A stretch of DNA of 64,000 nt from Antedon mediterranea (lineage: Eukaryota; Echinodermata; Crinoidea; Comatulida; Antedonidae). Under the pieces are notes generated by a model. That model saw only the letters and a list, made by a program, of their open reading frames with translations. It did no database searches and was not told where the DNA came from. The position numbers were made by a program, and so were the translations under genes. The DNA lies in assembly GCF_964355755.1 (NCBI RefSeq), contig NC_092671.1:13620501-13684500 (forward strand), given 5' to 3'. This document shows, piece by piece, positions 37,301 to 64,000 of this stretch; the first letter of the stretch is position 1; each line of letters begins with the position of its first letter.

Positions 37301-37430
37301 TTATAGGAGCGCAATTGATGAATTACTTATTGACACATACATCAAACATAAAAAGAATGGCTGGACAATCATTATAGGAGCGCAATTGATGAATTACTTA
37401 TTGACACATACACCAAACATAAAAGGAATG

Positions 37431-38499
37431 CAGGCCCGTAGCCAGGGGGGTTTTTTATGGTTCGGGCGAACCCCCCCTTTACAGCGAACCCCCCTTAACC
37501 GACTGCGAACCCCCATCCCCGACATGCCCAATACATCACCCTCATCTCCGAAAATCGTCCAAATACGTGCCCCACAGTACAAAAAGTTGTTCGTAAATTA
37601 AAAAATTCGTAAACTCGTTCGGAATAACTCATACAGTACCTTCTTCCCTGTATGAGCGTACTTCGAGTGATATAGTCTGTAAAGAGTTGCAAATGAATGG
37701 CCGATTTTAACCTGAAAAATAAATGTTTGGTCCCTGCATGTAACATGATATTGACGCGTCTCACAGCGAGCTGGGGGACGAACGATTCGTACAAAGGACA
37801 CCGCCAGACAACTGCGTACCAATTGTTTAGATCACTGGCAGTCAGGCAGCATGCATAAAGTATATAGCCTTCCGACATACATCAGTATTTATGTGTGGCT
37901 ATGAAGTATAATGTATCATAGAGGATTATAGTGAATATTAATATTTTACACTATAATATCTGTGGTATCATGTACTGTAGTTCGCATTATGGCATCCGAT
38001 TATTTTTTTCTAGACCACCAGCCGATACGTACTCAAATGTATCAATATCACCTATCTACATTGGCATATTTAATTTCCTCAACAAATTGCTGTAAATAAA
38101 TATTATAGATAGAGCTATAATAAGAATTGCATTTGCCTTCACCCAGTGTGCTTTTTTCGGGGCTTCTCCTAGACGTACGTTCGCATTGAACTTGAACGCA
38201 AAACAAAATATCGAGTAAATGATCAAACAATCGGCGGTTCCGCACAGAGCACGCGCATCTAACATACGGCAACAAATGTTATCGTTTAAAAAGTCCACGA
38301 GTCCAAGTATGATCGTTTTGCTCATTGGTAGCATGATGCATGAGAGTGTCTTTTCCGGCCATCTAGGGGTGTCATTTAACAAAATTTGTTTCGCTTCAGG
38401 CCCCACCCCAGGGAGGGGGGAGGGGGTAGGTATGGGGGTGGGGTGACCCAAATACTTAGTGTGCGAACCCCCCCTTGACAGATCCTGGCTACGGCCCTG
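37431..38499. mobile_element. 1,069-bp TIR element (CAGGGCCGTAGCCAGG type) in the satellite
   Basis: Left end CAGGCCCGTAGCCAGGGGGG, right end (reverse) CAGGGCCGTAGCCAGGATCT. Behind each end are CGAACCCCCCC tracts in inverted orientation. The 5-bp target GAATG is duplicated (37426-37430 and 38500-38504) and the satellite unit resumes in register. No transposase is recognisable, so it is non-autonomous. The CAGGG-type ends resemble several DNA transposon groups; superfamily is open. Confidence 0.85.
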
Positions 38500-39170
38500 G
38501 AATGGCTGGACAATCATTATAGGAGCGCAATTGATGAATTACTTATTGACACATACATCAAACATAAAAGGAATGGCTGGACAATCATTATAGGAGCGCA
38601 ATTGATGAATTACTTATTGACACATACATCAAACATAAAAGGAATGGCTGGACAATCATTATAGGAGCGCAATTGAGGAATTACTTATTGACACATACAT
38701 CAAACATAATAGGAATGGCTGGACAATCATTATAGGAGCGCAATTAATGAATTACTTATTGACACATACACCAAACATAAAAGGAATGGCTGGACAATCA
38801 TTATAGGAGCGCAATTAATGAATTACTTATTGACACATACATAAAAATAAAAGGAATGGCTGGACAATCATTATAGGAGCGCAATTAATGAATTACTTAT
38901 TGACACATACATCAAACATAAAAGGAATGGCTGGACAATCATTATAGGAGCGCAATTGATGAATTACTTATTGACACATACATCAAACATAAAAGGAATG
39001 GCTGGACAATCATTGTAGGAGCGCAATTAATGAATTACTTATTGACACATACACCAAACATAAAAGGAATGGCTTGACAATCATTATAGGAGCGCAATTA
39101 ATGAATTACTTATTGACACATACATAAAAAATAAAAGGAATGGCTGGACAATCATTATAGGAGCGCAATT

Positions 39171-41038
39171 TTTTTTTTTCTCTTTTGTGGTTAACCACCA
39201 CCTTTATTCATTCTTTCATACAAATTTCGTTCACATTTCATTTTCATACATTAAATTTCTGTTTTCTACTTTTTTCGTTATTTTCTGATTTTTACTCTTT
39301 TAACCTTTATACATATAGTGGTTTGATTATATGCATACAAAAACTGTACATCTTAAAATACAAAAATGGATGCCACTTATAAGTTACAACATGCCTAGTG
39401 TATTCATATCTTTTAAAATATATTTAAACTGAATCCAGGGATTCTGGCATACAGGTTTTTTAAGTTCAGTTTTAATTTTAATTATGTATATGACGTACAC
39501 AGCTATTGAATACAATTGGTTTTTTAATTGACATTTACTTCCTAACAGGAGTTCTTTGAACGAGCTACTGCTGTTATTTAGCTTTTTAAATATATTGTCA
39601 ATTTTTTCCCATAGTATTTGATTACGTCTACAGTAATAAAACATATGTTTTTCGTCTTCAATGACTCCACAATTGTTACATATGTTATTATTTTTCAGTT
39701 TCCAGTTATACAGTTTTAGATTTGTAGGTACAACTCTATTTAGTAATTTGTAATTCAATTGGGCAAATTTCTTAATTTTTTCGTTTTTCACTTTTCTTTT
39801 CCAGACATCACACCACTTGATATCTTCATTAAATATGTTATTCCATTTAAGTATGCTTTTCGGGGGAATAAAAACATTATTAACAAAGTTAGAATAAACA
39901 TCTTTTGTTGTCATCTTAATTATATTGTTGATATTGTATTCCAGATTCACATTCATATATTGGTTCATATTTGGCATATTATGTTTAATTATACTTAACC
40001 ACTCTTTTGGAATAGCTCTGGTTAGAGAAACATATTCAGCTATCCAGTTTTTCTTAATACGTAATTGTTTAATTATTTCTATAGGTTTCATTAGACGATT
40101 GAAAATAATTATATCTCCAATTTGATTAAAACCTGCATCTATCCAGTTCTTAAAGAATAGTGGTTTGTTTCTATATTTAATATCATTGTTACCCCATAAG
40201 TTTTGCTTTATCACTTCTTCATACTCGTTAATTGTACCTTCATTATTCATATTATTAAATTCAACACAACACTTTAGAACATTATAATAAAAAGATGGTA
40301 TAGTATCTAAGCCCATGTTATTTTGAAAATTGATATTTGACATACTTAAAATTAGTTGTTCGGTTCCAAATTTATTAAAATAGTATAGTGGTAAGATTTT
40401 CCATCTTACGTGTTTTCTACACAGTAATTTTCTTGCCCATATCATTTTCAGAGAGTTTATGTGTAATGCGAAATCAGGCATACCTATGCCCCCTTTAATC
40501 ATCCTACCGATTAAAGTTTTTCTTTTTATTTTTTCTGTTTTTCCATTCCATAAAAAGTTATATATCAATTTATTTATTTTAAAAATAACATCATCTGGTA
40601 CATCAATTATACATGCATTGTATGTTAGTTTAGACAAAGCTAAACTTTTTAAAATGGTAACTTTGCCAAAACAGGTTAGGTTTCTTCCTTTCCATCTATT
40701 GAGTAGCATTTCTAAGTTTGCCACCTTACTATCCCAATTTAATTCACTGCATTTGTTCTCATTATATCCCACATAAATACCCAAAATCTTAATTGGTTCA
40801 TTAACCCAATTTAGACTGCATGGTTTTTGAATTTTGTTTACATTTTTGCCAATCCATATAGCGTTGGTTTTTTTTTTATTTAAAGTCATACCAGACACTT
40901 TACCAAACTTATTAACAATGTTTAAACCAATCTCTATACTTTTTTCATTTCCCACAAAGAGTACAGTGTCATCTGCCAGCTGCGCAATGCGAACTTCCTC
41001 ACCATTATCATTGTTAGGTAAAGATATTCCTTTATAGC
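39171..41038 (-). mobile_element. 5'-truncated LINE (L1/Tx1-like) inserted in the satellite
   Basis: The minus-strand open frame runs from the left part of the element (stop at 39384) into satellite sequence at its N-terminus; about 550 residues belong to the element. It starts inside the reverse-transcriptase palm (QLADDTVLFVG), followed by SGMTLNKKKTNAIWIG and ILGIYVGYN. It ends with a zinc-knuckle CNNCGVIEDEKHMFYYC. A T-run at 39171-39179 is the poly(A) tail on the minus strand. The 14-bp target ATAGGAGCGCAATT is duplicated (39157-39170, 41039-41052). The frame is intact, so the insertion is probably young, but it lacks endonuclease and most of the RT. Confidence 0.88.
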
Positions 41039-41428
41039 ATAGGAGCGCAATTAATGAATTACTTATTGACACATACATCAAACATAAAAGGAATGGCTGG
41101 ACAATCATTATAGGAGCGCAATTATTGCACATTCTAAAAATAATTTATATTTTAGTGTTTAATGCATTTTTTCAAATTGATGGAACATTGGCCCTTAATG
41201 GAACCAATCCTTACATTATGGGTTATATAACGCCTAGTTTAGATAAAAGTGTCTATTCAAACATTTGGCAAATAATTGTTACATTTTCTTGATTTAGTAA
41301 CTTGGCTATCTTTCAGCTCTTTGTAAACCCAGCGACCATTCAGATATCGAGGGACTCGAGTCAAATAGAAAATGGATAGCATTGCATTTGTCTTTGAATT
41401 CAAGTCTGTCAAATGTATCTTATATTTG

Positions 41429-42380: not shown

Positions 42381-45300
42381 CTAAGCATGTCTGGCTTGGC
42401 TACTTGACGGGATACTGCCAAGTTCTAGGCTACCCTGAGAAGTGGAAGGAATCTCACTTGTCCCAGTAGTTATGTTTATAAAAATACCTTTCCAGTAATT
42501 TCTAACTTCTTTATTTCTAACACAATACATCACAAAAATGAGAAAGCCCTGAAGGGTGTTAAAGATACAGAATAATAAGTTGTTGATTCTGGAAGCCTCT
42601 CCAATCGCAAAGAACCCAAAAAGCCATGTTAAGCCCATTACCAAGGTGATACTAATTGCATTTTGCAGCATCCGGATTCCATCATTTTTCTTTTGCCTTT
42701 GAAACTTTCCATGTTGGAACAAGCTATGCATCACCAGAATAAACACCATTGCGTTGAACAGCAGTGCAATAGCCACAGGAACAGCAACACTTACATACAT
42801 TCGACTCAAGGCCAAAAAACAACTGGGAAGAGAGATAATCCATTTATATACTTTGAGCAAAAATAAGTTCAATACAAACAAATCAATTCCAACACTTGAT
42901 TTAGCAAAATTAGTTATTTATAAACATGTTTGCCGCAATATGATTCATTTTGTCATAATTTACATTTTTTTACTTTTGATCAACATTTCGGAACCATTTT
43001 TTAAATTTGACTAATAATAAATTATATAATATTACTGTATTTTTGTAAAATTATGGTGCATTACTTACTGGTTATTTTCATCTACATATTCATCAACATC
43101 CACAAAGATTGTGGCCAAAACAATAACAGCTGGTGTACCTGTAAGAGACCATTTTTATTTCAAGACTCAAAACACACTACTGTGACTATTTCTTACTGTA
43201 TGTTTTGTGAATGATATAGCAAGTTTATTTACCTGATTGAAAGTAAATATTTAAACTCACCCCATCCAAAAAGAATGGATTTAAAAAGAAAATTGGAAAC
43301 ATGGGAATTCAACACTTTCACAAACAGGTAATACATCATTACAGCTTGTACGGTCATCCAGAAAATTGAAGAAAGCAGAAAGTAATGCAATATCGCCCCC
43401 ACAGCAGTACACCCATATTCATTGCGCTTGTTTTGGTCAATTCCTGCAAGGAACACGATGTACAGACACAGCAATGAGGCACATAAATTACACAGGATTT
43501 TCTTTGGTTCAGGTTTTCTTAAATTTCTAAAATGAATGGTACAAAAATCATATTTAGAAAAAAAAATGTAAACATTATAAATCCAACAATATAGGCATAT
43601 TAATAAGTTTATTAATAAAAATGATAAATCAATAAAAATAATATAGAGCTGCTGGTAATTATTTTGATGATTACTATGACAAGTAGACATGGGTCTAGCT
43701 TAATACATAAATATTTATTTTTCAAAGGATATCTCATATACTTACCTATTAGTTGCGAAAGTTAACAATGTGAGACTAAGCCCTGTGATTGATAGAGCTA
43801 AACCTATTTTGGTAATTATTTCAAGAACTGGATCATCATCTTGAGGGTAAAAATCCTATAAAGACAGTAAATTGGCTTTCTTAAGATAACTTTAAAACAT
43901 AACAAACACGGTTCTATGTTCTGTTATTTATAAAATGTTATTTATAAGAATAGAAAATAGAATAGAAAGCTATAAACATTTTATATATACATTAATTAAA
44001 TTATTGTACCATAAGAACAGCAAAATTAGTGAGATGATCGCAATTACAGTACTGTCTATCTCTACCATCAGGGGATCCACTAATTAGAACACATCCCTCA
44101 CTTGACCACCCTCCAATACCATTCTCCAATGCAAAATCCCAAAACACACATTCAGTGTTATCGTTTTCCTCAGTTATCTACAAAAGGAGAATGCAAACAT
44201 TATATTTACAGTGTTATCCTGAAGCAGGGATGCAGAGATTTGCCAGACTAAAATTGGTAATAACAAGGCCATATAGATGGCTGCAGTCGCGTGCTCATTG
44301 GTGTTTACCGACCGACCGACCAACCTACCAACTGACCGAAATTACTGAACATGTTTAAAAATGTTGAAATGTTTAAAAACATTATATTTTTTTAATTTAC
44401 ACGTGCGTAGCCTGTCACTTTTGACGTGCTCGTATAACGTAATTTCGAGTTGAAAAGTAAGTCAAGACTAGATTTGAACTCGTCACTAAGGACGAGTTAG
44501 GTTATCCGCATCGCAAACGCCACGTGCACGTCATACGTTAGAATATTGCGCGCAGAAAAACGATTAAGCCATTGAAAAAAATGTTAGTGCGCTCTCTATT
44601 TTGTGTTACGTCTAAGTATATACAGTATACACTATACTGTATACGTACTACATACAGTGCAGAATAGGTGAAAATAAGTGACCAAAGTTATTGACGCTTT
44701 TTCACATGATGACGTCATAAACATTTTAAAAATGGTAAATCATGCGAAAGATATTTGATTGACCTAGACAATAAAAAAAAATGGGGGAAAATGGAAAACG
44801 GATAAGTGGAGATGCGCTCTATTAAATGTGGTGCGCTATGACGAAAGAGACAAAAATCCTATATTTTATATTCGAGTAGCCATACGATGACGTCACAATG
44901 TCCGGTTAGCCATATTAATGCATGATTCGGTAAATACAACTCATCAACTTCCAGAATATGTAATTAAAAAAAAGTTCACCACGTAGTTTAGAATTTATGA
45001 CTGTTTAAAAAAAGGCATAATTTTGACGAATTTTTGAACTTTTTCATCAAAAACGCGCGCAAATTGTCAAATTCTACGTGGTTATATGACGTGATATTAA
45101 GTCAAAATTGTTTAAAAATTGGTAAAATTACTAGAAAAGGCTGGAAAAACAAAAATAACGCAAAAAAATATGTTTTTTGTGCTACGTGCTCAAAATGACA
45201 TGAAAGGCGTAGAAAGTTGATTAGAAATTAATTTTTCGCATCTTGAAATTTTAAACGCGCGTGCGCGCGTAACTTTCTATAAAACATGCCATTTTTAATC

Positions 45301-47383
45301 CATATAAAATTTGCGCTTGATATGACTTAAATTTTCACCAAGTGTCAATACAAAATGACTTCTAGTTTTTAATCTATGATCAATCATTGAAATTCATAAA
45401 ATCGCGCGTAACTTACGCTGCGCGACTCAACATTCATAAAAAAAAGTTTCTTGCACATCTACAGTTCAATCTTATGACAAAGTTATACAATCTTATGTTG
45501 GCCAGAATTAGAGATACGCTGCGAACAAAATTCCGGGAAAGAAAGAAGAATAAAGAAAAAAAAAAAGAAAAAAAAAAAGATCGTGACAATAACAAGGGGT
45601 TATCCGCCAAGTGCGGATAACCAAAAACAGAAATCGGGCAAAAGGAGTGCGCAATAACATTTAACACGCAGTGCGCGCGCAAAAATCTGCGCACTCATGG
45701 CAATTTTGTAAACGCTTAAAATTGCCTGAAACGTACTCTTATTTCATCGAAAATAAATTTTGAAAATTGTAAGCGCTCGTACGCATGCGTCAGATGCGCT
45801 ACGCACGTAATTGTATTGCTATATGATGATTTATGCCCTGAAATTTATGAGTACCAAATTTTATTTAATTGGTTGTGAAGATATGATTACAAACATGATT
45901 TCGTTAAATCCTGCGTAGACCGCGTAATTTTTTATTGCGCACCGTGAAAACATAACCACATTGATTCCTGGCCATAAGGAATATACTGTGAAAAATTGAC
46001 TTAGCTAATTAAACTGATATCAAGATAAGGTCAGAAAGCGATAAAACACATAGTGATACCAGACCGACAGACAGACCGACCGACCGACCGACCGACATAG
46101 TGAACTATAGAGTCGCGTCCACGCGACTAAAAATGGTGCAAGAAAATTGTGTAAGAAAATTATAGGCCCTACATAAAATAAACACTCATCTAGTAGTGAT
46201 AAGTTAAGCCATTAAAAACATAGACCAAGAGCAATCAAAGATTTTATTTTGTCAATTGGATAGAAAAGGACAATATTATTTAAATTTTTTTGTATTTAGT
46301 AGATTTTACATCTTATATAGTACATCAGTAATTCGGTACTTCACTTAATTTTTCAAACTCGATTTCTATATCGGGAGAACATTGTTTATAAAATTCCATT
46401 AAAATATACAGTATACTCTAATTATTGATCTTAATAGGTCTATGATTTTAGATGTGTTTAAATTGTATGAGTTGCATGTGCTTAAATTTATTTCCGATTT
46501 ATTTTATTCTAGATTACCTCATCATATTATACTATACTTTAACTATGTAAACCATCCATTTAACACCCGATTTAATGACCCGTTTAATCTCTCGATCCCC
46601 TTTTGCCGTACGACTCTATCTCAAACCAATATAACATACCAAGGTCCTAAACTCTGGAATAAACTCCCAGTAAATATTAAGTCAATTTCATTTAGAACAC
46701 AATTTGCCATCAAAGTCAAAGAACATTTAATAACCTTATATGATGCTTAGTTTTTTTTTCTAGTTTTTTCTATTTAAAAAACAAACAAAAAATGTGTATA
46801 ATACTCTTCTATTACTTATTTCATATTCATATTGATAATGCCAGTGAGTTATTAATTTTCATTTATGTAATTAATTTTCTTCAGATTTTTCTTTTTCAGA
46901 AATGATATACGTTCTAGTTTAAGTTTTGTTTATTTTAAAAGGCCAAAACTCGATAAGCGAAAGCTTTTTTTTTTGGTCTTTTGTCTTTAGTTTGATTTTA
47001 TGTATGTGAAAAAGAACAAGAAAGAAAGACAATAAAGATTATTATATACTATATGACAATTAACACCTTGGTTAGGGGTTACTTTCTCTTGAGCAAGGAG
47101 AAAAGAAGGTAATATTTGAACTTTGAAATATTTAAGTTTCATGAGTTTTCATGAGCTATGTAAAATAACATTGAATGATTTTTAACAAAAAACAACACCC
47201 AAACCCACCTGTGTATGCCTAAACTTTAAAAGTCAGAAATGGATTCCTAATTTAATCAGTTTAAATAAGAAAGATTTAGATCTTCACCAGTCCCTTTTTT
47301 AGTCCGACTCATTAATGATGAATATTGAATAGGCTGGCACTATTTTAACTTACAGGTGGACCAATTTTAATGTGGTAAATTAT

Positions 47384-47427
<44 letters not shown>

Positions 47428-50400
47428 AGTTTTACCTTTTATACATAATGTATTTATATATTTTTATCAAATTTTGTAAAATACTACTTTTCAGCCTTTT
47501 GGCTGCCGTTGTATTTTGATGTCTTTTTATGAATAAATATACCTAAATGAAATGAAATAATACTTTAAGCATTATATTTTTTCTAGTAATAATACTAAAA
47601 TTTACCTCTGCTGGAATGAACGTGGTTGTGAGTGGCTCAGATAAAGAAATTGAATCTGGTTTGTCTGGTACTGAGAATGAAATAACTGGACCATTGGGTC
47701 TCCGCTTCGAACTGTCATATTGAGGTGATTGAAATAGCCTACTATTTCTGTATGCAATCACAACAACCCGAAAATTATCACTGCCTAAATTGAATAATAA
47801 CAGATACGTTGAGCCAAAAAATATCAAAATAAATTAATGAAACATACTGACCATGTAATTATGAAGATACAAACACTGACCATTTTTATTCATAATTTCT
47901 GATGTGATACTCGGTGGTAATTGAATAGAAACTTGGACATCATCAGGCACCATATTTCCTTGTAAAGTTGTGACATCTTCCAGACCGTTTAAACCATCTG
48001 TTGACCCATATGCTAATCCAGTGCTGCTTACATCATCAGTATTTAACATCTGTCCGAGCACTGCAACATTCACCATACTTTCTTTGTAAACACCATCTTG
48101 TAGTCCAACTTGCCCAATCTGTTCTTCTAGTGACACAAGAATGTTTGTTGGTGCTTGCGACATCATTTGACTTTCCATCACAATATCTTCATCTATTTTA
48201 AACATGTTATTTACTGAACCAACCATTGATGATGCCACCTAATATTGATTTTTAACAAAGAAATGTATTTAGTTTTCTAGCCTTATGTCACTTTTCCATT
48301 ACTGAACTGCAGTACAACGACATAATGAGGATTTTAAATTGTACTACGGAAGCATATGTTCTATAAGATTCTTTATCACAAATTTGTGTATTGACAAAAG
48401 CTTTAATGTTACTTCAAAGTTGTAGTAGGAAAACAGGGAAGACAAGATACGTTTTCTTCATTATTTTTTAATTGGTTGTTAACTAATTTTATAACTACAA
48501 AAAACTAACCAATGTAGAGTTAGAATTAACAGACACAATATCCTGCAGAATAACAGCTGTACTTTCTAGTGCACTGCTGGTGATTTCATCAGTTCTCAAT
48601 GTTATGTTGTAGACTGCGACACTTACTTCCTCAACATTATTTTCTGTTACATTAATCTAGATAAAAATTTCTTTTAATCATCAATTCAATTAAGGTGTTA
48701 AACAATTTTAAAATAACACTGCTAGAGAATGTAAACACTATGAACTTACAGCTATTATTCTTGCAAGTATATCTTCTGCAGTTGCAATTCCACTGCAATT
48801 TGATATTTCAGGTATAGAATACCACATAGCTGTACTTAACCAATCACCAATACAAGTCCAATAAGCCGCTGGCTCACCATCTAAAACAAGAAGTTTACAT
48901 TGGAACAACCAGGACCTAAAACTGTGATGTACACAGGGTGTGCATAGCTCAATAGACAATTCAAAATAAGGCATAAATATTTCTTACTTTAAGACAAATA
49001 TTGCTTAACACATTGCCTAAACAATGTTAAATGTGAAGAGTATTGCTACAGTATTTGCATCAAAATGCAAAAACAAACACTGTAAAAGAAATAAAACTAA
49101 GGGATAATATTTTCTTACAATCTTTTTTTGTTACATCACACTTTTCTTCTGACCCAGTAGTGTGCCCAACTAATGTATCAGGAAATGTATAACCATTATA
49201 TACAACTTCAAAGCACATTTCTGTGAAGACAAGTCATCATTCTTACTTTTTAACATGCTAAATGTGTAGATATTGGAATTGTTAAACATTTTAGTTTAAA
49301 TTAGATATAGTCACTTTGTGATGAAATTCTCAAATGGTCAGTAGATAATACAATAACAACTGCTATAGAAACTAGAATTTAATTCGTCACTTTGACGAAT
49401 TATAGGTGATCATTTTTATCATTTGAAGGAAATTAAAATTTAAAAAAAAAACCACAAAGATAGCAATTTCTGAAGAAAATTATCTCAGCAACAACATATT
49501 AACGTGTAGAAGAAATTTAAATACGTGAAATATTAATGCGCGCTCTTAATGAATTATGACGCAAAAGATGAAAATACGACTTTTTTTATTTAACTGGCCA
49601 TATGATGACGTCACCACATCCGATTTGCAAAATATTTACATGATTTCGTATCTAAAATCCAATAGCTTCCAGAAAACGTTTTAATCGTGATTATCACATT
49701 TTATTCTTACGAGCTATAACAGATTAAAATTTACTGTAAAGATGAAATTAATGCCATTTGTAATTTAAATTTTTAGGCATGATGACGTCAAAAGAATTAA
49801 AATATTTTTAACTCATGCGAAAGATAGTTGATTGACCTAGACAATATCTAAATCGGGGTGAAAATGGAAAATGGATAAGTGAAGATGCGCTCTATTAAAT
49901 GTGATGACCTATTACGAAAGATACAAAAATCCTAAATTTTATATTCGCGTGGCCATACGATGACATCACAATGTCCGGTTAGCCATATTAATACATTATT
50001 CGATATCTACAAATCATCAACTTCCAGAATATGTAATAAAAACAACTTTCACCGTTTAGTTTAGAAACTACGACTGTTTAAAACAAGGCCAACAGCCATT
50101 AAGTCGCGTGCTACAATGCATAGTGATACCGGACCGACAGACAGACCGACAGACCGACAGACAGACCGACAGACAGACCGACAGACCGACAGACAGACAG
50201 ACCGACCGACCGACATAGTGAACTATACTGACCGAAATTACTGAACATGTTTAAAAATCTTGAAATGTTTAAAAACATTTATATTTTTTTAATTTACACG
50301 TGCGTAGCCTGTCACTTTTGACGTGCTCGTATAACGTAATTTCGAGTTGAAAAGTAAGTCAAGAAAACAGAAATCGGGCAAAAAGAGTGCGCAATAACAT

Positions 50401-53400
50401 TTAACGCGCAGTGCGCGCCCAAAAATATGCGCACTCATGGCAATTTTGTAAACGCTTAAAATTGCCTGAAACGTACTCTTATTTCATCGAAAATAAATTT
50501 TGAAAATTTTAAGCGCGCGTACGCATGCGTTACATGCGCTACGCACGTAATTGTATTGCCATATGATGATTTATGCCCTGAAATTTATGAGTACCAAATT
50601 TTATTTAATTGTGATTCATGGTTGTGAAGATATGATTACAAACGTGATTTCGTTAAATCGTGCGTAGACCGCGTAATTTTTTATTGCGCACCGTGAAAAC
50701 ATAACCACATTGATTCCTGGCCATAAGGAATATACTGTGAAAAATTGACCTAGCTAGATTAAACTGATATCAAGATAAGGTCAGAAAGCGATAAAACGCA
50801 TAGTGATACCGGACCGACAGACCGACAGACAGACAGACCGACAGACAGACCGACAGACAGACAGACAGACCGACCAACCGACCGACATAGTGAACTATAG
50901 AGTCGCTTCCACGCGACTAAAAAGGCATAATTTTGACAAATTTTTGAACTTTTTCATCAAAAACGCTCGCAAATTGTTCAGTTCGACGTGCTCGTATGAC
51001 GTGATTTTAAGTCGAAATTGTAACGTAAACATTTGCGGGCGCGTGGAAATTTTTGACATGCTCAAAATGTCATGATCAGCGTAGAAAGTTGATTAGAAAT
51101 TAATTTTGCGCATTTTGAAATTTTAAAAGCGCGTGCGCGCGTAACTTGTAAAACATGCCATTTTAAGTGCACTAAAAGTTTGCCCTTGATATGACTTAAA
51201 TTTTCATAAAGGGTAAAAAAAAAATTACGCTTGGTTTTTAAGCTATGATCAATCATTAAAAATCATAAAATCGCGCGTAAGTCACGTTGCGCAACTCTGA
51301 CGTCATTCAAAATAGGAGGTGCACAACTTCATGTAAATGCCCACATGTTGTCAAAGTTATGAAATGTTATGTTTACACATTTTAGAGAAACGTGACTCAC
51401 AAAAACACGGGAAAGAAATAAGAACTAGATTTGAACTCGTCACTTTGACGAGTTAGTTATCCGCACGACAAACGCCACGCGCACATCATACGTGGGAATT
51501 TTGCACACGGAAAAAGATTATGGCATTATGACCTGAACTGAAGAATATCATATGCTGTTATTGCTGAATTCTGTAAATTTTGTGTCATATAGTATATACA
51601 GTGCAAACGGTATAATCTGTATACATGTTACATACAGTGTAGAATAGGTGAAATTACGGGTTTATTCCTATTTTTAACATGGCGACGGTATCAAAATGAA
51701 ACACTAAGATAGTAATTTCGGAAGGACATTATCTCAGCAACCACACATTAACGGGTAGAAGAAATTTGAATACGTAAAATATAGATGCGCACCCTTTTAA
51801 ATGTGATGAACTATTACGCAAAATATGAAAATACGACTTTTTTTATTCAACTGGCCATATGATGACGTCACAACATCCGATTGGCAAAATGTTTACATGA
51901 ATTCGTATCTACAATCCAATAGCTTCCAGAAAACGTTTAATCATGATTATCACGTTTTATTCTGACGAGCTATAACAGATTAAAATTTACTGTAAAGATG
52001 AAAATAAGTGACCCACGTTATTTTCATTTTTAGACATGATGACGTCATAAAAATTAAAATATTTTTAACTCATGCGAAATATAATTGATTGACCTAGACA
52101 ATATTAAAATCTTGGAGAAAATGGAAAACAGATAATTGGAGATGCGCTCTATTAAATGTGATGAGCTATGATGGAAGATACAAAAATCCTATATTTTATA
52201 TTCGCGTGGCCATACGATGACGATGATTGATTCGCCATATCAATGCATGATTCCATATCTACAACTCATCAACTTCCAGAATATGTAATAAAAACAACTT
52301 TCACTGTAGGAATTACGACTGTTTAAAAAAAGGCATAATTTTGAAGAATTTTTTAACTTTTTCATCAAAAACGTGGGCAAATTATCCAATTCTACGTGCT
52401 CGTATGACATGATTTTAAGTCGAAATTGTTTAAAAATTGGTAAAATGACTAGAAAAGGCTGAAAAAACATAAATCATGAGAAAAAATATGCTTTCTCCGC
52501 TACGTGCGCGCGCGCGCGTAAAAAATTGCTCGCGCTCGGGAATTTTTTTAATGCTTAAAATGACATGAAACGCATAGAAAGTTGATTTTTCGCATTTTCA
52601 AATTTTAAATGCACGTGCGCGCGTAACTTTCTGTGAAACATGCCATTTTCTTTCTACATACAGTTAACGCAAGATATAAATTAAACTTTTGCTAAGTTTC
52701 AATTTAAATTGTTGTATGGTTTTCGATCTATGTTAAAACGCGAAATTCATAAAAACGCGCGTAAGTCACGTTGCGCAACTCTGACGTCATTCAAAAATAG
52801 GAGGTGCACAACTTCACGTGAATGCCCATTATGTCGACAAAGTTATGAAATGTTATGTTAACACGTTTAAGAGATACGCTCTGCACAAAAAGTGAGAGAG
52901 AAAGACCGAAGAATAATGTGAAAAAAAAGAAACGGGACAGTTACAAGGAGCTATCCGCTGAATGCGGATAACTAATAATACAGAAAAAAAAAATATTGAT
53001 CCACTACAATCACAAGGAGTTATCCGCTACTAAGCGGATAACTAAAAAGATGATGAAACAGGACAGTTACAAGGAGTTATCCGCTGAATGCGGATAACTA
53101 ATAAAAAGATGATGTTGATGATGATTTCGTACAATCACATGGGTTATCCAGCAACTTCGTTGCGGATAACCAAATAAAGATTTCATACAATAACAATAGG
53201 TGATCATTTTATTCTAAATGATCACCTAATAACAGTACAGTAATGATTCAACTTAGACTCATTTTGTGGGCTATTTAGAGACTGGATGATGAGTGAAACA
53301 TGCTTTTGCTACTAAACAAAACCATTTATTGTCATTTACTTTACTAGCAGTTTTAATATTGATACTGTTCACGTCAAAATATCCATTTGAATTTGTTCCA

Positions 53401-56400: not shown

Positions 56401-59400
56401 AAAACTTTATATTATATATATACTCATAAAACACAAGGTTTACACTTTCCCCATGATTTTCACACACACGAAAATAATAGTTAACTGTTTAGTTGCTTAG
56501 TACTATTGTTTTTGGGTACTGGAATTATAGTGGATTTTTTCCATAGTTTCGTTATCATGCATAAATTTAGACCAACACAGAGTTGGTCCGAACAAAAAAA
56601 TTACGTTTTACCCTCAACTTGATCAGGACCATATAACTCTTATTAAAATTTATTTTTCTTAAAAGGGTTTTTATGTTATTTTTTTTCAATATTAATCTTT
56701 CTATATTATTTTTAATATCAATATTTTGTAGAACTTGATCCTGTCTTATTTCATTATTTATTAACACCTGATTTTCAACTCTTGAATGAAAATCATCAAG
56801 CTCACAGTTACAATATCAAGATGTATTTCTTGCCTAACTCTATTTTTAGAATTTATAGAAGCCATTGTTATACCTTGCCAAGCATTTCTTAAGCTCCAGT
56901 TTACAAAGAGTGCTTCTATTTTACTCCTATAATTTGCTTTAGCTACACAAATATCTCAATCCCCTGTTTATTTCATTTTCACACCGGCACAGATCCTGGG
57001 AAGTGGGGGGGGGGGGGGTGTGGTGGCGTAGGGACATGTCCCATATTTTTTACTGGGGGATTGTCGCCTTCACTTTTCAAGAGCAAAATCATTAATTGTT
57101 AAAAATGAAATAGAAAGTAAGACTTCTATGACAAGCATGATGTATCGTATGTAATTTCAGAAAATACAGTATCTAAGACTAGATTTTGCGTTCGCATCAG
57201 GAGCAGTGCCTAAAAAGTGAGTAACCCAAAATAATTGTCTTCTTCCAGGCGGAATTTTTATGTGCTCAGAAATCGATTGAAACGACCCCTGGACCCCCAG
57301 GGGTCCTTGGCGGCACCCTGGCTCTCAGCCTAATGTTTTCATTTTTATACAGTTTCCCCCACTATTAAAAACGGATCTGCGCCGTTTCATTTTCATATTT
57401 ACTTCCGGTAAAAAATAAACGTTTCTTTATTAATAATTTCCGTTTTAGTGATCCATGGCTTGTTGTTGGAAAATACCATTATTTGTCTGAATTACTTCTT
57501 CAACACACTTATTAATATACGCGGTAATTACTTCTATGATTTCATCCAGATCCAGCGACGAATTGTAACAAACTTGCCAATCAGTGCAGTCAAAACACCC
57601 TCTTAGGGTTTCAATACTATCTTCTGTCCAAATTTTAACTGTATTAACCACTGTATTTGCTCGTTGAACTAGAGGGAACTTAGAAAATAACCGTATGGAA
57701 TTGTGGTTCGACGCTCCAAGAGGCGGGAGAGCAATTGGTGTATACATATCACGAATAGTACCATAGCAAAGATTTACCTTGCGAGTTGGACATATATTAT
57801 TGTGTTATATATTGCTGGTATGCCCTAAAAGTCCTAGAAAATTTGTGTTGATTAAAATCACCGATGAACAAAGTTTGGTGCGTCGGGAGACAAGGCTTCT
57901 ATATTTTGGATGGTGTTTGAGAGCGTTTCAGATGCTCTACTCGTCTTGGCAATTGGGGAATACATCACACACTCAAATAGTCGTAACAATGCGCAAAATA
58001 TTTCAATGTCAGGATTGCATACCTTCTCCCTCACAACAACGGTGTTGCACCATTGTTGGTTATAATAATTTTTCTGAATGTAATGTCCTATCTGCATGTA
58101 TGAGTTGAAAACCATCAATATCCATGCATAAATCAGAAACATTCTCGTTCCGCCAGGTTTCCATTAAACAAAAAGTTTGTTTCTTCCTTTCCTACCTCGC
58201 TTTTTTTTCTTGACTTGTCCGTATGTCCGTAAAAATCATCTGGTAATTGTGTAGATCTGGTACCAAGGCGGGTGTGTTTGATCGAAGATTCAACAGAAAT
58301 TCCTTGCTGTACGTTAATCTGACTATATGTTGGTTATCGCCTAAGTTCAAGCCTGTTGCCAAAACACTTAATTACCTCGTAAATACCACATAGAAAATCA
58401 CCATAACCACACACTGTTTAGAAAACATCATGCAAACTAACAAGCACAAAAAATCCACACAAATAGTAATTTACACAAAAGTATCACATCAAATATCCCA
58501 CGAACAAAAATTTCAGTCCTGGTCGCCACTGGGTACTCGGACGTTTTGCCGAATGCCATTTCGCCGACCAGAAATTTCGTCTACATGATTTTGGGCAAAA
58601 CTGGACATTGGGCCAACTGGACATTGGGCCAACTGGACATTGGGCCAACTGGACATTGGGCCAACTGAACATACAGTATGACCGACAGGACTTTTTGTCG
58701 ACAGCACATCACGCCAAAACTTCTTCTTTATTTCGTCAGGTACGGTATCACTACACTCATTTTCAATAACCGCACTATTAGACTGCACGTCTCGTTTTCA
58801 CATGTCAGTTTTTTTATACGGAAATTATCTAATCGACAAAGTGTCCTGTCGGCCAATTGTTCTGTCAATGAAATGTCCTGTTGACAAAATGACCGGTTGG
58901 CGAAATGTCCGGTCAACGAAATGTCAAGTGAGTTAAAGGTCTGGTGGCCAAGTAGCCTGTCGACCACTTTCTGTCTGTTTATATTGTGTCCGTCCATAGA
59001 AACATATCATAATTAAATAAACAGAAGTATTATTTAGTATTATGTTTATATTATTTTTTTAGTTATATTATTAAGTATTAAAGACATTAAAATTACACAA
59101 AGACCCAAGAGAAAAACTTACATAATAGTGTATTGTAAATTGTAAATAGAATTCCATCTGCTTTTAAACTTACATGTTTCACAGAACTGTCCAGTGTAGC
59201 AAGACGGACAGGTACACGTGTATGCAGTACAGGAACCAGAATCCTGGACACAATCAGCTCCATTTTGACAAGCATTATTGGAACAAGCATTTAATACTGA
59301 AATAGCAAATAAATTATATTTTAATTTCTCTTTAATTACTTGATACGTGAATAGAATTCCATCTCCTTTTAAACTTACATGTTTCACAGAACTGTCCAGT

Positions 59401-62400
59401 GTAGCAGGATGGACAGCTACACGTGTATGAAGTACAAGAACCAGAAACCTGGACACAACCAGCTCCATTTTGACAAGCATTATTGGAACAAGCATTTAAT
59501 ACTGAAATAGCAAATAAATTATATTTTAATTTCTCTTTAATTACTTGATACGTGAATAGAATTCCATCTCCTTTTAAACTTACATGTTTCACAGAACTGT
59601 CCAGTGTAGCAGGATGGACAGCTACACGTGTATGCAGTACAGGAACCAGAAACCTGGACACAAGCAGCTCCATTTTGACAAGAATTATTAGTACAAGCAT
59701 TTAATACTGAAATATTAAATAAATTAAAATTTACTTTCTCTTGATATAGCTGGTTCTTAAATACTATTTCATCTACATTTTGTGCTGTTTTTAAACTTAC
59801 ATGTTTCACAGAATGTTCCAGTGTAGCATGCAGCACATCTACACGTGTATGCAGTACACAAACCAGAAACCTGGACACAAGCAGCTCCATTTTGACAAGC
59901 ATTATTGGAACAAGCATTTAATACTGAAATAGGAAATAAATTATATTTTAATTTCTCTTGAATTACTTGATACGTGAATAGAATTCCATCTGCTTTTAAA
60001 CTTACATGTTTCACAGAACTGTCCAGTGTAGCAAAATGGACAGCTACACGTGTAAGCAGTACAGGAACCAGCAACCTGGACACAACCAGCTCCATTTTGA
60101 CAAGCATTATTAGTACAAGCATTTAATACTGAAATATTAAATAAATTACAATTTACTTTCTATTGATTTACTTGGTATGTGAATAGAATTCCATCTGCTC
60201 TTTGTGCTGCCTTTAAACTTACATGTTTCAGAGAACTGTCCAGTGTAGCAAGACGAATTTGTCTTTATAATATAGACTAATGGATAAAGGGGAATTAAAA
60301 GATGCTCCAGCTCAAACAGGGATACTATCGGACTTGCGGTTTCGGAGGAGATAGAGGAGCAAATTTTGCTTGGTACGTGAATAAAATGTCATCTGCTTTT
60401 TGTGCTGCTTTTAAACTTACATGTTTCACAGAACTGTCCAGTGTAGCAGGATGGACAGCTACACGTGTAAGCAGTACAGGAACCAGAAACCTGGACACAA
60501 GCAGCTCCATTCTGACAGGCATTATTGGAACAAGCATTTAATACTGAAATATTAAATAAATTATATTTTACTTTCCCCTGATTTACTTGGCACTTGAATA
60601 GAATTTCATCTGCTGCCCATGGCACTCTTCAATTTTCACCTATTGTATTGCATCCTTGATCGATTTTGGTAGTGGGGAAATGCAAAGGATTGCCAAACGC
60701 AATGTTAGGCAGTTGCAAAGAAATTGGTTTAAAAAACACACTTTCGTACAAATTTGACTTTATAATATAGACTATAATGGATAAAGGGTTTAAAAGGTGC
60801 CCCAGCTCGAACAGGGGTACTATCGGACTTGTGGTTTGGGAGGAGATAGAGGAACAAATTTTGGCTTAGTGCTATTATAATATAGATTTTACTGTCCCTT
60901 GATTTACTTGGTACGTGAATAGAATTCCATCTGCTCTTTGTGCTGCTTTTAAACTTACATGTTTCAGAGAACTGTCCAGTGTAGCAAGACGAATTTGTCT
61001 TTATAATATAGACTAATGGATAAAGGGGAATTAAAAGATGCTCCAGCTCAAACAGGGATACTATCGGACTTGCGGTTTCGGAGGAGATAGAGGAACAAAT
61101 TTTGGCTTAGTGCTATTATAATATAGATTTTACTGTCCCTTGATTTACTTGGTACGTGAATAAAATGTCATCTGCTTTTTGTGCTGCTTTTAAACTTACA
61201 TGTTTCACAGAACTGTCCAGTGTAGCAGGATGGACAGCTACACGTGTAAGCAGTACAGGAACCAGAAACCTGGACACAAGTAGCTCCATTCTGACAGGCA
61301 TTATTGGAACAAGCATTTAATACTGAAATATTAAATAAATTATATTTTACTTTCCCCTGATTTACTTGGCACTTGAATAGAATTTCATCTGCTGCCCATG
61401 GCACTCTTCAATTTTCACATATTGTATTGCATCCTTGATCGATTTTGGTAGTGGGGAAATGCAAAGGATTGCCAAACGCAATGTTAGGCAGTTGCAAAGA
61501 AATTGGTTTAAAAAACACACTTTCGTACAAATTTGACTTTATAATATAGACTATAATGGATAAAGGGGAATTAAAAGGTGCCCCAGCTCGAACAGGGGTA
61601 CTATCGGACTTGTGGTTTGAGAGGAGATAGAGGAACAAATTTTGGCTTAGTGCTATTATAATATAGATTTTACTGTCCCTTGATTTACTTGGTACGTGAA
61701 TAAAATGTCATCTGCTTTTTGTGCTGTTTTTAAACTTACATGTTTCACAGAACTGTCCAGTGTAGCAGGATGGACAGCTACACGTGTAAGCAGTACAGGA
61801 ACCAGAAACCTGGACACAAGCAGCTCCATTCTGACAAGCATTATTAGTACAAGCATTTAATACTGAAATATTAAATAAATTAAAATTTACTTTCTCTTGA
61901 TATAGCTGGTTCTTAAATACTATTTCATCTACATTTTGTGCTGTTTTTAAACTTACATGTTTCACAGAATGTTCCAGTGTAGCATGTAGCACAGCTACAC
62001 GTGTATGCAGTACACGAACCAGAAACCTGGACACAAGCAGCTCCATTTTGACAAGCATTATTGGAACAAGCATTTAATACTGAAATAGGAAATAAATTAT
62101 ATTTTAATTTCTCTTGAATTACTTGATACGTGAATAGAATTCCATCTGCTTTTAAACTTACATGTTTCACAGAACTGTCCAGTGTAGCAAAATGGACAGC
62201 TACACGTGTAAGCAGTACAGGAACCAGCAACCTGGACACAACCAGCTCCATTTTGACAAGCATTATTAGTACAAGCATTTAATACTGAAATATTAAATAA
62301 ATTACAATTTACTTTCTATTGATTTACTTGGTATGTGAATAGAATTCCATCTGCTCTTTGTGCTGCCTTTAAACTTACATGTTTCAGAGAACTGTCCAGT

Positions 62401-64000
62401 GTAGCAAGACGAATTTGTCTTTATAATATAGACTAATGGATAAAGGGGAATTAAAAGATGCTCCAGCTCAAACAGGGATACTATCGGACTTGCGGTTTCG
62501 GAGGAGATAGAGGAGCAAATTTTGCTTGGTACGTGAATAAAATGTCATCTGCTTTTTGTGCTGCTTTTAAACTTACATGTTTCACAGAACTGTCCAGTGT
62601 AGCAGGATGGACAGCTACACGTGTAAGCAGTACAGGAACCAGAAACCTGGACACAAGCAGCTCCATTCTGACAGGCATTATTGGAACAAGCATTTAATAC
62701 TGAAATATTAAATAAATTATATTTTACTTTCCCCTGATTTACTTGGCACTTGAATAGAATTTCATCTGCTGCCCATGGCACTCTTCAATTTTCACCTTTT
62801 GTATTGCATCCTTGATCGATTTTGGTAGTGGGGAAATGCAAAGGATTGCCAAACGCAATGTTAGGCAGTTGCAAAGAAATTGGTTTAAAAAACACACTTT
62901 CGTACAAATTTGACTTTATAATATAGACTATAATGGATAAAGGGATTAAAAGGTGCCCCAGCTCGAACAGGGGTACTATCGGACTTGTGGTTTGGGAGGA
63001 GATAGAGGAACAAATTTTGGCTTAGTGCTATTATAATATAGATTTTACTGTCCCTTGATTTACTTGGTACGTGAATAAAATGTCATCTGCTTTTTGTGCT
63101 GCTTTTAAACTTACATGTTTCACAGAACTGTCCAGTGTAGCAGGATGGACAGCTACACGTGTAAGCAGTACAGGAACCAGAAACCTGGACACAAGCAGCT
63201 CCATTCTGACAGGCATTATTGGAACAAGCATTTAATACTGAAATATTAAATAAATTATATTTTACTTTCCCCTGATTTATTTGGCACTTGAATAGAATTT
63301 CATCTGCTGGCCATGGCACTCTTCAATTTTCACCTATTGTATTGCATCCTTGATCGATTTTGGTAGCGGGGAAATGCAAAGGATTGCCAAACGCAATGTT
63401 AGGCAGTTGCAAAGAAATTGGTCTAAAAAACACACTTTCGTACAAATTTGACTTTATAATATAGACTAATGGATAAAGGGGAATTAAAAGGTGCCCCAGC
63501 TCGAACAGGGGTACTATCGGACTTGCGGTTTGGGAGGAGATAGAAGGATAAATTTTGGCTTATTGCTATTATAATATAGATTTTACTGTTCCTTGATTTA
63601 CTTGGTACGTGAATAAAATGTAATCTGCTTTTTCTGCTGCTTTCAAACTTACATGTTTCACAGAACTGTCCAGTGTAGCAGGATGGACAGCTACACGTGT
63701 AAGCAGTACAGGAACCAGAAACCTGGACACAAGCAGCTCCATTCTGACAGGCATTATTGGAACAAGCATTTAATACTGAAATATTAAATAAATTATATTT
63801 TACTTTCCCCTGATTGACCTGGCACTTGAATAGAATTTCATCTGCTGCCCATGGCACTCTTCAATTTTCACCTATTGTATTGCATCCTTGATCGATTTTG
63901 GTAGCGGGGAAATGCAAAGGATTGCCAAACGCAATGTTAGGCAGTTGCAAAGGAATTGGTCTAAAAAACACACTTTCGTACAAATTTGACTTTATAATAT
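42381..64000 (-). CDS. Adhesion GPCR with EGF array, Ig, SEA, HormR, GAIN/GPS and 7TM (5' end outside window)
   Basis: Surface receptor, self-cleaved at the GPS. C-terminal exons: 54768-54884 (EGF), 54417-54677 (Ig, YCK..DWQWF..YYWCSG), 54147-54259 and 53345-53549 (SEA-like), 49119-49220 and 48750-48880 (hormone-receptor domain, CFEVV..TCIGDW..NC), 48510-48656, 47848-48238 and 47606-47784 (GAIN), 44010-44177 (GPS, CNCDHLTNFAVLM, cleavage expected between L and T), 43746-43855 (TM1), 43261-43526 (TM2-4), 43069-43138, 42381-42822 (TM5-7, GLTWLFGF, NTLQGFLIFVMYCVRN; stop TAG). Twelve 123-bp EGF exons lie upstream at 59174-63775. All phases join; EGF and Ig exons are class 1-1. About 1,390 residues are visible. 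The C-terminal tail is short. Nearest recognisable relatives are B2 (adhesion) GPCRs, possibly the ADGRF-like group with SEA domains. Linking the EGF array to the receptor rests on matching phase, strand and order. Confidence 0.85.
44264..46132 (+). mobile_element. Family D element copy 1 (nested host of element C)
   Basis: 5' end CAAGGCCATATAGATGGCTG then CAGTCGCGTGC, followed by an ACCG tract. The 3' part has GTGATACCAGACCGACAGAC, an (ACCG)n tract, ACATAGTGAACTATAGAGTC and a terminal hairpin GTCGCGT-CC-ACGCGAC followed by TAAAA. The left arm of the terminal hairpin is repeated at the 5' end. Element C sits inside at 44468-45624. It lies in the intron between the GPS exon and the preceding GAIN exon. 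Non-coding. Confidence 0.75.
44468..45624 (+). mobile_element. Hairpin-ended element C, nested in family D copy 1
   Basis: Starts CTAGATTTG, then a hairpin with arms AACTCGTC and GACGAGTT, then AGGTTATCCGCA. Ends with hairpin GGTTATCCGC-CAAG-GCGGATAACC after a purine-rich tract. The copy of the host element near 50366 lacks this insertion (GTCAAG directly joined to AAAACAG), which fixes the borders to within the A-run. About 1.16 kb, no open frame of note. Confidence 0.8.
46442..47045 (+). pseudogene. LINE ORF2 C-terminus and 3' UTR fragment
   Basis: The frame ends ..NTRFNDPFNLSIPFCRTTL, then ITYQGPKLWNKLPVNIKSIS and FKVKEHLI-like residues before a stop at 46750. This is the usual C-terminal signature of RTE/CR1-type LINE proteins (GPKLWNxLP). 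An AT-rich 3' part ending in GACAATAAAGATTATTAT follows. Upstream reverse-transcriptase sequence is absent. Confidence 0.7.
47386..47560 (+). repeat. Poly-T tract (~35 T) and LINE-like 3' tail
   Basis: About 35 consecutive T residues near 47388-47422 are followed by a TTGGCTGCCGTTGTATTTTG segment and GAATAAATATACCTAAATGAAATGAAAT, like the 3' end of a short-tailed LINE. It lies just outside the GAIN exon that starts at 47784. Confidence 0.4.
50084..50922 (+). mobile_element. Family D element copy 2
   Basis: Begins CAAGGCCAACAGCC..AAGTCGCGTGC and ends with the hairpin GTCGCTT-CC-ACGCGAC then TAAAA. It carries two (ACCG/ACAG)n tracts, near 50133-50213 and 50812-50885. It splits element A in a TTTAAAA-AAAGGC context that is uninterrupted in elements B and C. 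Its interior is the uninserted allele of the sequence that surrounds element C. Confidence 0.75.
51425..52974 (+). mobile_element. Hairpin-ended element B nested in element A
   Basis: Starts CTAGATTTG, then a perfect hairpin with 9-bp arms AACTCGTCA and TGACGAGTT, then AGTTATCCGCAC. Ends near 52974 with hairpin CTATCCGC-TGAAT-GCGGATAA. The interior repeats much of element A and C (for example ATTCGCGTGGCCATACGATGA). No coding frame. Confidence 0.7.
53790..54064 (+). pseudogene. CR1/L2-like LINE 3' fragment with (TTA)n tail
   Basis: A decayed frame reads HYGFRTFSWASVALRNGLPI, then FIRKATTIAYFKAALKTHLF before the stop, like the C-terminus of CR1/L2 reverse-transcriptase proteins (FKxxLKTHLF). 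A (TAT)n tail follows. It sits in the intron between the two SEA exons of the adhesion GPCR. Confidence 0.6.
55132..55231. repeat. Near-perfect 32-bp inverted repeat with 36-bp spacer
   Basis: Arm 1 is 55132-55163 (begins TGTGATAAAAAGTTACTTCT) and arm 2 is 55200-55231, its reverse complement. The spacer has GTACTTACA and no coding potential. It lies next to the decayed LINE at 55250. Confidence 0.8.
55250..58142 (-). pseudogene. Decayed LINE copy (endonuclease, linker, RT C-terminus)
   Basis: Minus-strand pieces occur in the order of a LINE ORF2. They are: 57858-58142 (NTVVVREKVCNPDIEIFCAL.., endonuclease part), 57445-57747 (VKIWTEDSIETLRGCFDCTDW, DLDEIIEVITAYINKCV, linker), 55741-55860 (YFKLNISKTKDMIIDFWRE, RT palm/thumb) and 55358-55576 (FYNSFVESVTFSFICWFYNL, C-terminal part). 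Stops and frameshifts separate them and the RT core is missing. One copy or several of the same family cannot be told apart. All lie in the intron before the EGF array. Confidence 0.7.
58591..58935. repeat. 16-bp tandem repeat and degenerate AAATGTCC repeats
   Basis: 58600-58671 has about four to five copies of CTGGACATTGGGCCAA. From 58820 to 58935 a looser repeat of the type GAAATGTCCGGTCAAC follows, with variants such as TGTCCTGTTGACAAA. Non-coding. Confidence 0.8.
60223..60256 (-). pseudogene. Truncated EGF exon
   Basis: Only the 3' third of an EGF exon is left (SCYTGQFSET), with an intact donor GTAAGT but no acceptor. The last Cys of the motif is changed to Ser. The same remnant recurs at 60959-60992 and 62379-62412. 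It is unlikely to be spliced into the message. Confidence 0.75.
60630..60900. repeat. ~270-bp spacer repeated between EGF exons
   Basis: Marked by CATCCTTGATCGATTTTGGT, GGATTGCCAAACGCAATGTT and GGTGCCCCAGCTCGAACAGG. Further copies are at about 61408-61680, 62787-63058, 63326-63598 and 63863-64000. No open frame is conserved. It travels with the EGF exons as part of a larger duplicating unit. Confidence 0.85.
60959..60992 (-). pseudogene. Truncated EGF exon, second remnant
   Basis: Identical in form to the remnant at 60223-60256, with the same break point AAGACGAATTTG and the same Cys-to-Ser change. It therefore descends from one deletion event that was later duplicated. Confidence 0.7.
62379..62412 (-). 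pseudogene. Truncated EGF exon, third remnant
   Basis: Copy of the 60223-60256 remnant carried along by the 2,156-bp-offset duplication. Confidence 0.75.

Follow-up and report, generated by a model that had tools for sequence, protein, structure and literature searches.

What are the repeats whose two ends carry matching tags in this 64,000-nucleotide stretch of Antedon mediterranea DNA (hereafter the window), and how do their ends stay matched? Three of them, A, B and C, have a CTAGA(A/T)TT terminus followed by a hairpin and a short tag that recurs as one arm of a distant palindrome. Judging from their sequences, they very probably belong to the Helentron/Helitron2 group of rolling-circle transposons, as non-autonomous members (HINEs) with minus-strand polarity and located within T runs. 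Here, we demonstrate their anatomy, the genome-wide pairing of the types of their 5' and 3' asymmetric terminal inverted repeats (ATIRs), the existence of an autonomous Helentron with the same (C-type) ends and their insertion without multi-base duplication.

Layout and polarity of the elements

The CTAGA(A/T)TT starts of A (49372), B (51425) and C (44468) were found where the sequence-only reading had placed them, and their common plan, i.e. a terminal hairpin, a tag and a far palindrome whose arm equals the tag, was borne out. The stems covary as described, being AACTCGTCA and TGACGAGTT in B, TAATTCGTCA and TGACGAATTA in A, and AACTCGTC and GACGAGTT in C. The equality of tag and arm holds for all three elements. 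However, the tags of B and C, which had been given as identical, are not quite the same: their first bases differ (A versus G), and this single-base difference is mirrored at both ends of each element. Furthermore, head-to-tail A copies elsewhere in the genome correct the end of A from 53230 to 53229. The features are listed below by position in the window.

44468..45624, minus strand: element C (probable HINE, GGTTATCCGC ATIR), within repeat X1
44477..44498, no strand: 3'-terminal hairpin of C, AACTCGTC-ACTAAG-GACGAGTT (reading and fold)
44500..44509, minus strand: 3' ATIR of C, GGTTATCCGC
45598..45622, no strand: palindromic 5' ATIR of C, GGTTATCCGC-CAAGT-GCGGATAACC (reading and fold)
49372..53229, minus strand (true Helitron2 polarity): element A (probable HINE, A-type ATIR), with X2 and B inserted within and extra palindromes near the 5' end
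49380..49402, no strand: 3'-terminal hairpin of A, TAATTCGTCA-CTT-TGACGAATTA, lying 8 nt in from CTAG; the true 3' end is 49372
49403..49416, minus strand: 3' ATIR of A (the former tag), TAGGTGATCATTTT
50269..50430, plus strand: paralogous site in X2, empty of C; the insertion point is a run of A, and there is no multi-base duplication
51425..53101, minus strand: element B (probable HINE, AGTTATCCGC ATIR), inserted within element A, in its A-rich tract
51434..51454, no strand: 3'-terminal hairpin of B, AACTCGTCA-CTT-TGACGAGTT (reading and fold)
51455..51464, minus strand: 3' ATIR of B, AGTTATCCGC
52949..52973, no strand: B-like palindrome, left arm with one changed base (AGCTATCCGC...GCGGATAACT), an extra 5' terminus
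53018..53043, no strand: palindromic 5' ATIR of B (reading and fold)
53075..53099, no strand: second palindromic 5' ATIR of B (reading)
53142..53171, no strand: E-like imperfect palindrome GGTTATCCAGCAACTTCGTTGCGGATAACC, a further 5' terminus
53197..53228, no strand: palindromic 5' ATIR of A, TAGGTGATCATTTTATTCTAAATGATCACCTA (reading, genome counts and fold)

The 5' end of B is either the palindrome 53018-53043 or the palindrome 53075-53099. A palindrome almost identical to GGTTATCCAGCAACTTCGTTGCGGATAACC closes an E-type unit at another locus (L084).

Our analysis reverses the orientation given by the sequence-only reading: CTAG, hairpin and tag form the true 3' end, and what had been taken for a 3' hairpin is the 5' ATIR, which is palindromic. 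Read along the minus strand, the elements run T^TT, palindromic 5' ATIR ... 3' ATIR, hairpin, CTAG^T (^ marks a boundary). For instance, C reads TTGGTTATCCGC-ACTTG-GCGGATAACC ... GCGGATAACC-T-AACTCGTC-CTTAGT-GACGAGTT-CAAATCTAG, with T flanking both sides. Its palindromic repeat lies 2 nt from the 5' terminus, and the inverted copy of the ATIR lies about 31 nt from the 3' terminus, followed by the hairpin and CTAG. This is the organization of Helitron2: Bao & Jurka (2013, PMC3627910) place the 5' ATIR 0-2 bp from the 5' terminus, where it forms a 5' hairpin, and the 3' ATIR ahead of the 3' hairpin, at ~20-30 bp from the 3' terminus. The 5' terminus consists of TT and the palindrome in C and B, and of TT and the A-type palindrome in A; the 3' hairpin sits about 9 nt inside the CTAG terminus. 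The 5'-TC end without 5' hairpin of canonical Helitrons (Helitron1) was not found at these 5' ends, which are TT plus palindrome.

It is unlikely that the same Helentrons run the other way, with CTAGA as the 5' end and a tag repeating the left arm of a 3'-terminal hairpin. The RepHel ORF does point in that direction and is thus antisense to the minus-strand polarity of the ends, but only the minus strand agrees with published elements in the order and spacing of the terminal features, in the CTAG end with its hairpin ~9 nt inside and in the TT insertion. Moreover, antisense RepHel ORFs are already documented in Helitron-1_DR, Helitron-2_CRe, Helentron-Da-40 and FoHeli4/5, i.e. in some, a minority, of the Helitron2/Helentron elements (PMC3627910, PMC4067079, PMC5148889).

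In the minus-strand orientation, the matched end tag is the already described inverted repeat (ATIR) viewed from the opposite strand. The tag/arm match, which had been put forward as a device by which the two ends are recognised as a pair, is not new: it is the ATIR or subTIR of Helitron2, Helentrons and FoHeli (PMC3627910, PMC4067079, PMC5148889). Compared with dinucleotide shuffles, the single-strand DNA folds of the element ends lie lower by 3.1 to 7.6 sd, and the proposal that the hairpins are functional is probably correct.

Matching of ends across the genome

Elements of this plan number thousands of copies in the 354 Mb searched. The exact start motifs occur 1,228 (CTAGATTTGAACTCGTCA), 604 (CTAGAATTTAATTCGTCA, A-type), 568 (F type) and 779 (CTAGACATGTAACTCGTCA) times, and the palindromes 531 (A-type) and 2,100 (GTTATCCGC, one strand) times. 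Since all reversed-pattern controls gave 0, chance is excluded for these ends.

Tags were surveyed in the genome with a 35-place pattern and in the sequence of fetched loci; a second pattern demanding H at one tag position found only 9 sites. Further tag types were F (AGGTTATATGC), D (CGGGTTATCCGC), E (TGGTTATCCGCC) and G (GACTATCGCC). The palindrome predicted blindly from the F tag, AGGTTATATGC-N-GCATATAACCT, has 550 matches genome-wide (reversed control: 0). The palindrome predicted from the G tag GACTATCGCC, seen at locus L008, was found neither in the genome nor in the fetched stretches up to ~3.1 kb downstream; this tag is regarded here as an exception or a relic.

The claim that the tag always equals the hairpin arm was checked on contig C1, where copies were typed by the first surveyed palindrome within 2 kb. 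All 47 typed copies (47/47) are concordant, without any cross-match: A starts lead to A palindromes (7/7), F starts to F palindromes (16/16), and C/D (14/14) and B/E (10/10) starts to GTTATCC palindromes, whose subtypes are not separated by this typing. Direct reading of a few copies assigns AGTTATCCGC palindromes to B starts and GGTTATCCGC palindromes to C and H starts. On the same contig, an A palindrome lies 0.3-4 kb downstream of 18 of the 40 A starts and upstream of none (0), and an F palindrome never does; conversely, 26 of the 41 F starts have an F palindrome downstream and 2 have one upstream, and none has an A palindrome. Such a palindrome is met from a random point of this contig in 0.4-0.5% of cases. 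Many copies are without a perfect palindrome within 2 kb; presumably, they are mutated, nested or longer.

Two other features of the palindromes were observed. F-type palindromes with a GAAAA/TTTTC loop recur at C1:10007833-10991983, with no F-type CTAGA start listed nearby, and probably form a subfamily with a different 3' end. At locus L058, two adjoining perfect hairpins with arms of 31 and 30 bp lie inside an A-type copy, ~0.65-0.78 kb downstream of its start.

Insertion sites, arrays and the autonomous partner

C is inserted within X1, whereas the X2 copy (50084-50920) lacks C: the empty site reads GTCAAG-AAAA-CAGAAATC and the filled one GTCAAGA^CTAGA...AACCAA^AAA-CAGAAATC. Likewise, X2 breaks A at an A run that is unbroken in the paralogue 44989-45030. 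The announced absence of multi-base target duplications is therefore confirmed at two paralogous empty sites (C and X2), where the A/T run hides 0-1 bp. With this ambiguity, both sites display the TT insertion without target duplication that characterizes Helentrons and HINEs. Being short, numerous, non-coding and equipped with inverted repeats, the elements could also be taken for MITE-like derivatives of a cut-and-paste (DDE) transposon. However, the elements have no symmetric TIRs, no multi-base target duplication was found at the two empty sites, and the same ends occur on an element encoding a rolling-circle enzyme, which contradicts this reading and makes it extremely improbable.

In arrays, a new copy either follows immediately on a palindrome (GCGGATAACCAA^CTAGA) or lies slightly inward of it, within the A-rich tract. 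These arrays comprise 10 or more units, and adjoining units can differ in ATIR type. Insertion at these two places explains both the spacing of starts (1.15-1.6 kb) and the palindromes found side by side. The nesting results from successive insertions next to the T-rich 5' end or within it. The window contains five palindromes (B-like, B, B, E-like, A) but no more than two CTAGA starts, those of A and B. FoHeli elements have multiple 5' termini, for which an origin in two steps has been proposed, first self-insertion and then transposition from an outer 5' end (PMC5148889); such a process would fit the five palindromes. Regular arrays of this size might also be satellite-type tandem DNA that was amplified by recombination and whose transposon ends are superficial. 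This is very unlikely, since numerous copies stand alone at dispersed places, where their ends are precise and their flanks unrelated, empty sites exist, and one array holds adjoining units of unlike ATIR types; secondary amplification of some arrays is possible.

The window harbors other repeats. X1 (44264-46130) and X2 (50084-50920) belong to a second family that has the same plan with other ends, i.e. a CAAGGCCAT/ATGGC hairpin, the tag AGTCGCGTG and the far palindrome AGTCGCGT-CC-ACGCGACT; internally, it contains a (GACC/GACA)n microsatellite. The start of this family is found 1,334 times in the genome at <=2 mismatches (control: 0), and this family is probably another HINE lineage. A tandem array with a 71-bp unit occupies 34970-37430 (~35 copies) and 38499-39170 (~9.5 copies), with a 96-97% match. 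It adjoins a 582-aa ORF (39384-41132, minus strand) that resembles, by eye, a reverse-transcriptase C-terminus. Finally, 59118-63857 contains repeated EGF-like exon units of ~205-217 bp, by eye an apparent exon duplication array.

The suggestion that the elements are of non-autonomous Helitron/Helentron type and have a RepHel-encoding partner with the same ends is supported by autonomous copies that carry C-type ends. Helitron_like_N has 87 matches in the genome, most of them in an open frame of ~3,000 aa, and many adjoin CTAGATTT arrays. Two copies (C1:11513307-11522636 and C7:12084818-12094099) were fully read. Each is a single ORF of ~3,100 aa encoding a Herpes_teg_N-type DUB, OTU, DUF6570, Helitron_like_N (PF14214), PIF1 (PF05970) and, C-terminal to PIF1, an AP-type endonuclease (Exo_endo_phos, PF03372; 3e-9 and 6e-11 in the two copies). 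The Rep motifs of the C1 copy are PHVHM (HVH) and YVIGY (YxxxY), as in a Rep of the HUH, Y2 type joined to PIF1. Since Rep, PIF1 helicase and AP-type endonuclease are encoded by one ORF, the partner is a Helentron. The C1 copy has a C-type end at C1:11509089, with the start CTAGATTTGAACTCGTCACTACGGACGAGTTAGGTTATCCGC upstream of the ORF, and is interrupted at its palindrome end. The C7 copy finishes in C-type palindromes GGTTATCCGCCAAGTGCGGATAACC (C7:12097943-12098095), and its CTAG end was not recognised in the stretch fetched. The ends of the autonomous element are thus pieced from two copies, and those common to non-autonomous and coding elements are C-type ends only.

Hairpins at both ends and the lack of target duplication would also suit other HUH-type transposons that move as single strands (IS200/IS605-like or Replitron-like), in which hairpins are recognised at both ends. 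The enzyme with the same ends is, however, a Rep-helicase-endonuclease Helentron protein with a two-tyrosine motif; the partner thus contradicts this possibility, whose probability we consider negligible. Hence, membership in the Helentron/Helitron2 group, the very probable reading, is based on a minus-strand anatomy that matches Helitron2 point by point, the 47/47 concordance, the unmixed A and F ends, the F prediction, the partner ORF and the empty sites.

An exchange of ATIRs under a single enzyme was also considered and dropped. Over 266 aa, RepHel regions with A-type flanking ends and those with F-type ones share 99.6-100% identity. Read to the first palindrome (on the palindrome-proximal side only for the A-flanked region), they prove to be the same H-type element, with palindrome GGTTATCCGCTTGAGGCGGATAACC, nested in both A-flanked and F-flanked arrays. 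A separate RepHel lineage at loci L009-L015 (PF14214 matches on C1, C2, C3, C4, C5 and C7) shares ~22-29% identity with that of the Helentron, as judged from the copies compared, all from this genome. Upstream of the C7 Helentron ORF, C7:12079099-12083250 holds a tandem array of ~343-bp units, to which one homologous stretch corresponds at the C1 copy.

Proposed mechanism and comparison with known systems

By analogy with the Helitron2 literature, Rep (HUH/Y2) would nick at the TT-flanked 5' palindrome, the helicase would peel the strand away and replication would stop on reaching the 3' ATIR and hairpin. The single-stranded 5' and 3' ATIRs would then base-pair at the cost of the 5' palindrome, defining the end, and the circle or strand would insert at another TT. 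The circle junction would read ...CTAG^TTGGTTATCC.... Where new copies land next to the T-rich 5' end of an older one, or slightly within it, nested head-to-tail arrays with clustered 5' palindromes would result.

We propose only tentatively, and with more doubt than confidence, that ATIR base-pairing rather than protein recognition of sequence sets the partnership between the 3' and 5' ends. What points to it is that ATIR lineages coexist and are mutually nested, yet mismatched pairs are absent (0 in 47 typed copies) despite the many unlike ends that nesting should make available by read-through. Sequence alone and a blind prediction indicate that the ATIRs of Helentron-type elements remain matched across diverging lineages in one genome. 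This supports the 2013 proposal (PMC3627910) whereby pairing of the ATIRs disrupts the 5' hairpin and determines where replication ends. The genome is also an instance of long head-to-tail arrays formed by nested Helentrons and the elements derived from them. No new kind of element is revealed; the findings are useful as a clean body of natural data on how ATIRs match.

Helentrons with both VTD and OTU were already known (PMC9741609, in the part considered), in which a tegument-like DUB (VTD) and OTU are likewise encoded by one Helentron ORF together with an AP-type endonuclease; the termini are read here, whereas that part does not describe them. FoHeli from Fusarium (Chellapan et al. 2016, PMC5148889) are similar in several respects: the ATIR itself belongs to a hairpin, each end has a hairpin, self-insertion accounts for the multiple 5' termini, and reversed ORFs occur. 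These fungal elements have other terminal sequences and are devoid of the endonuclease domain, and no long arrays were reported.

Helentrons, HINE and DINE-1 have palindromic subTIRs 2-4 nt from the 5' end, a 3' palindrome and TT insertion (Thomas et al. 2014, PMC4067079). These features are all found here, as are microsatellites in some copies and a partner with RepHel and endonuclease. They differ in that the 3' ATIR lies ~31 nt from the 3' end here versus 38-60 nt, and that the RepHel ORF is antisense to the ends, which that study reported for Helentron-Da-40. Finally, the elements resemble Helitron2 (PMC3627910) by the position of the 5' ATIR hairpin, the 3' ATIR just before the 3' hairpin and compensatory changes, which were described for two related elements, Helitron-1N1_CQu and -1N2_CQu. 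Unlike Helitron2, they have a CTAG-like 3' end and a partner with endonuclease, which places them in the Helentron branch, and more ATIR types coexist in one genome than in the parts of that study considered here.
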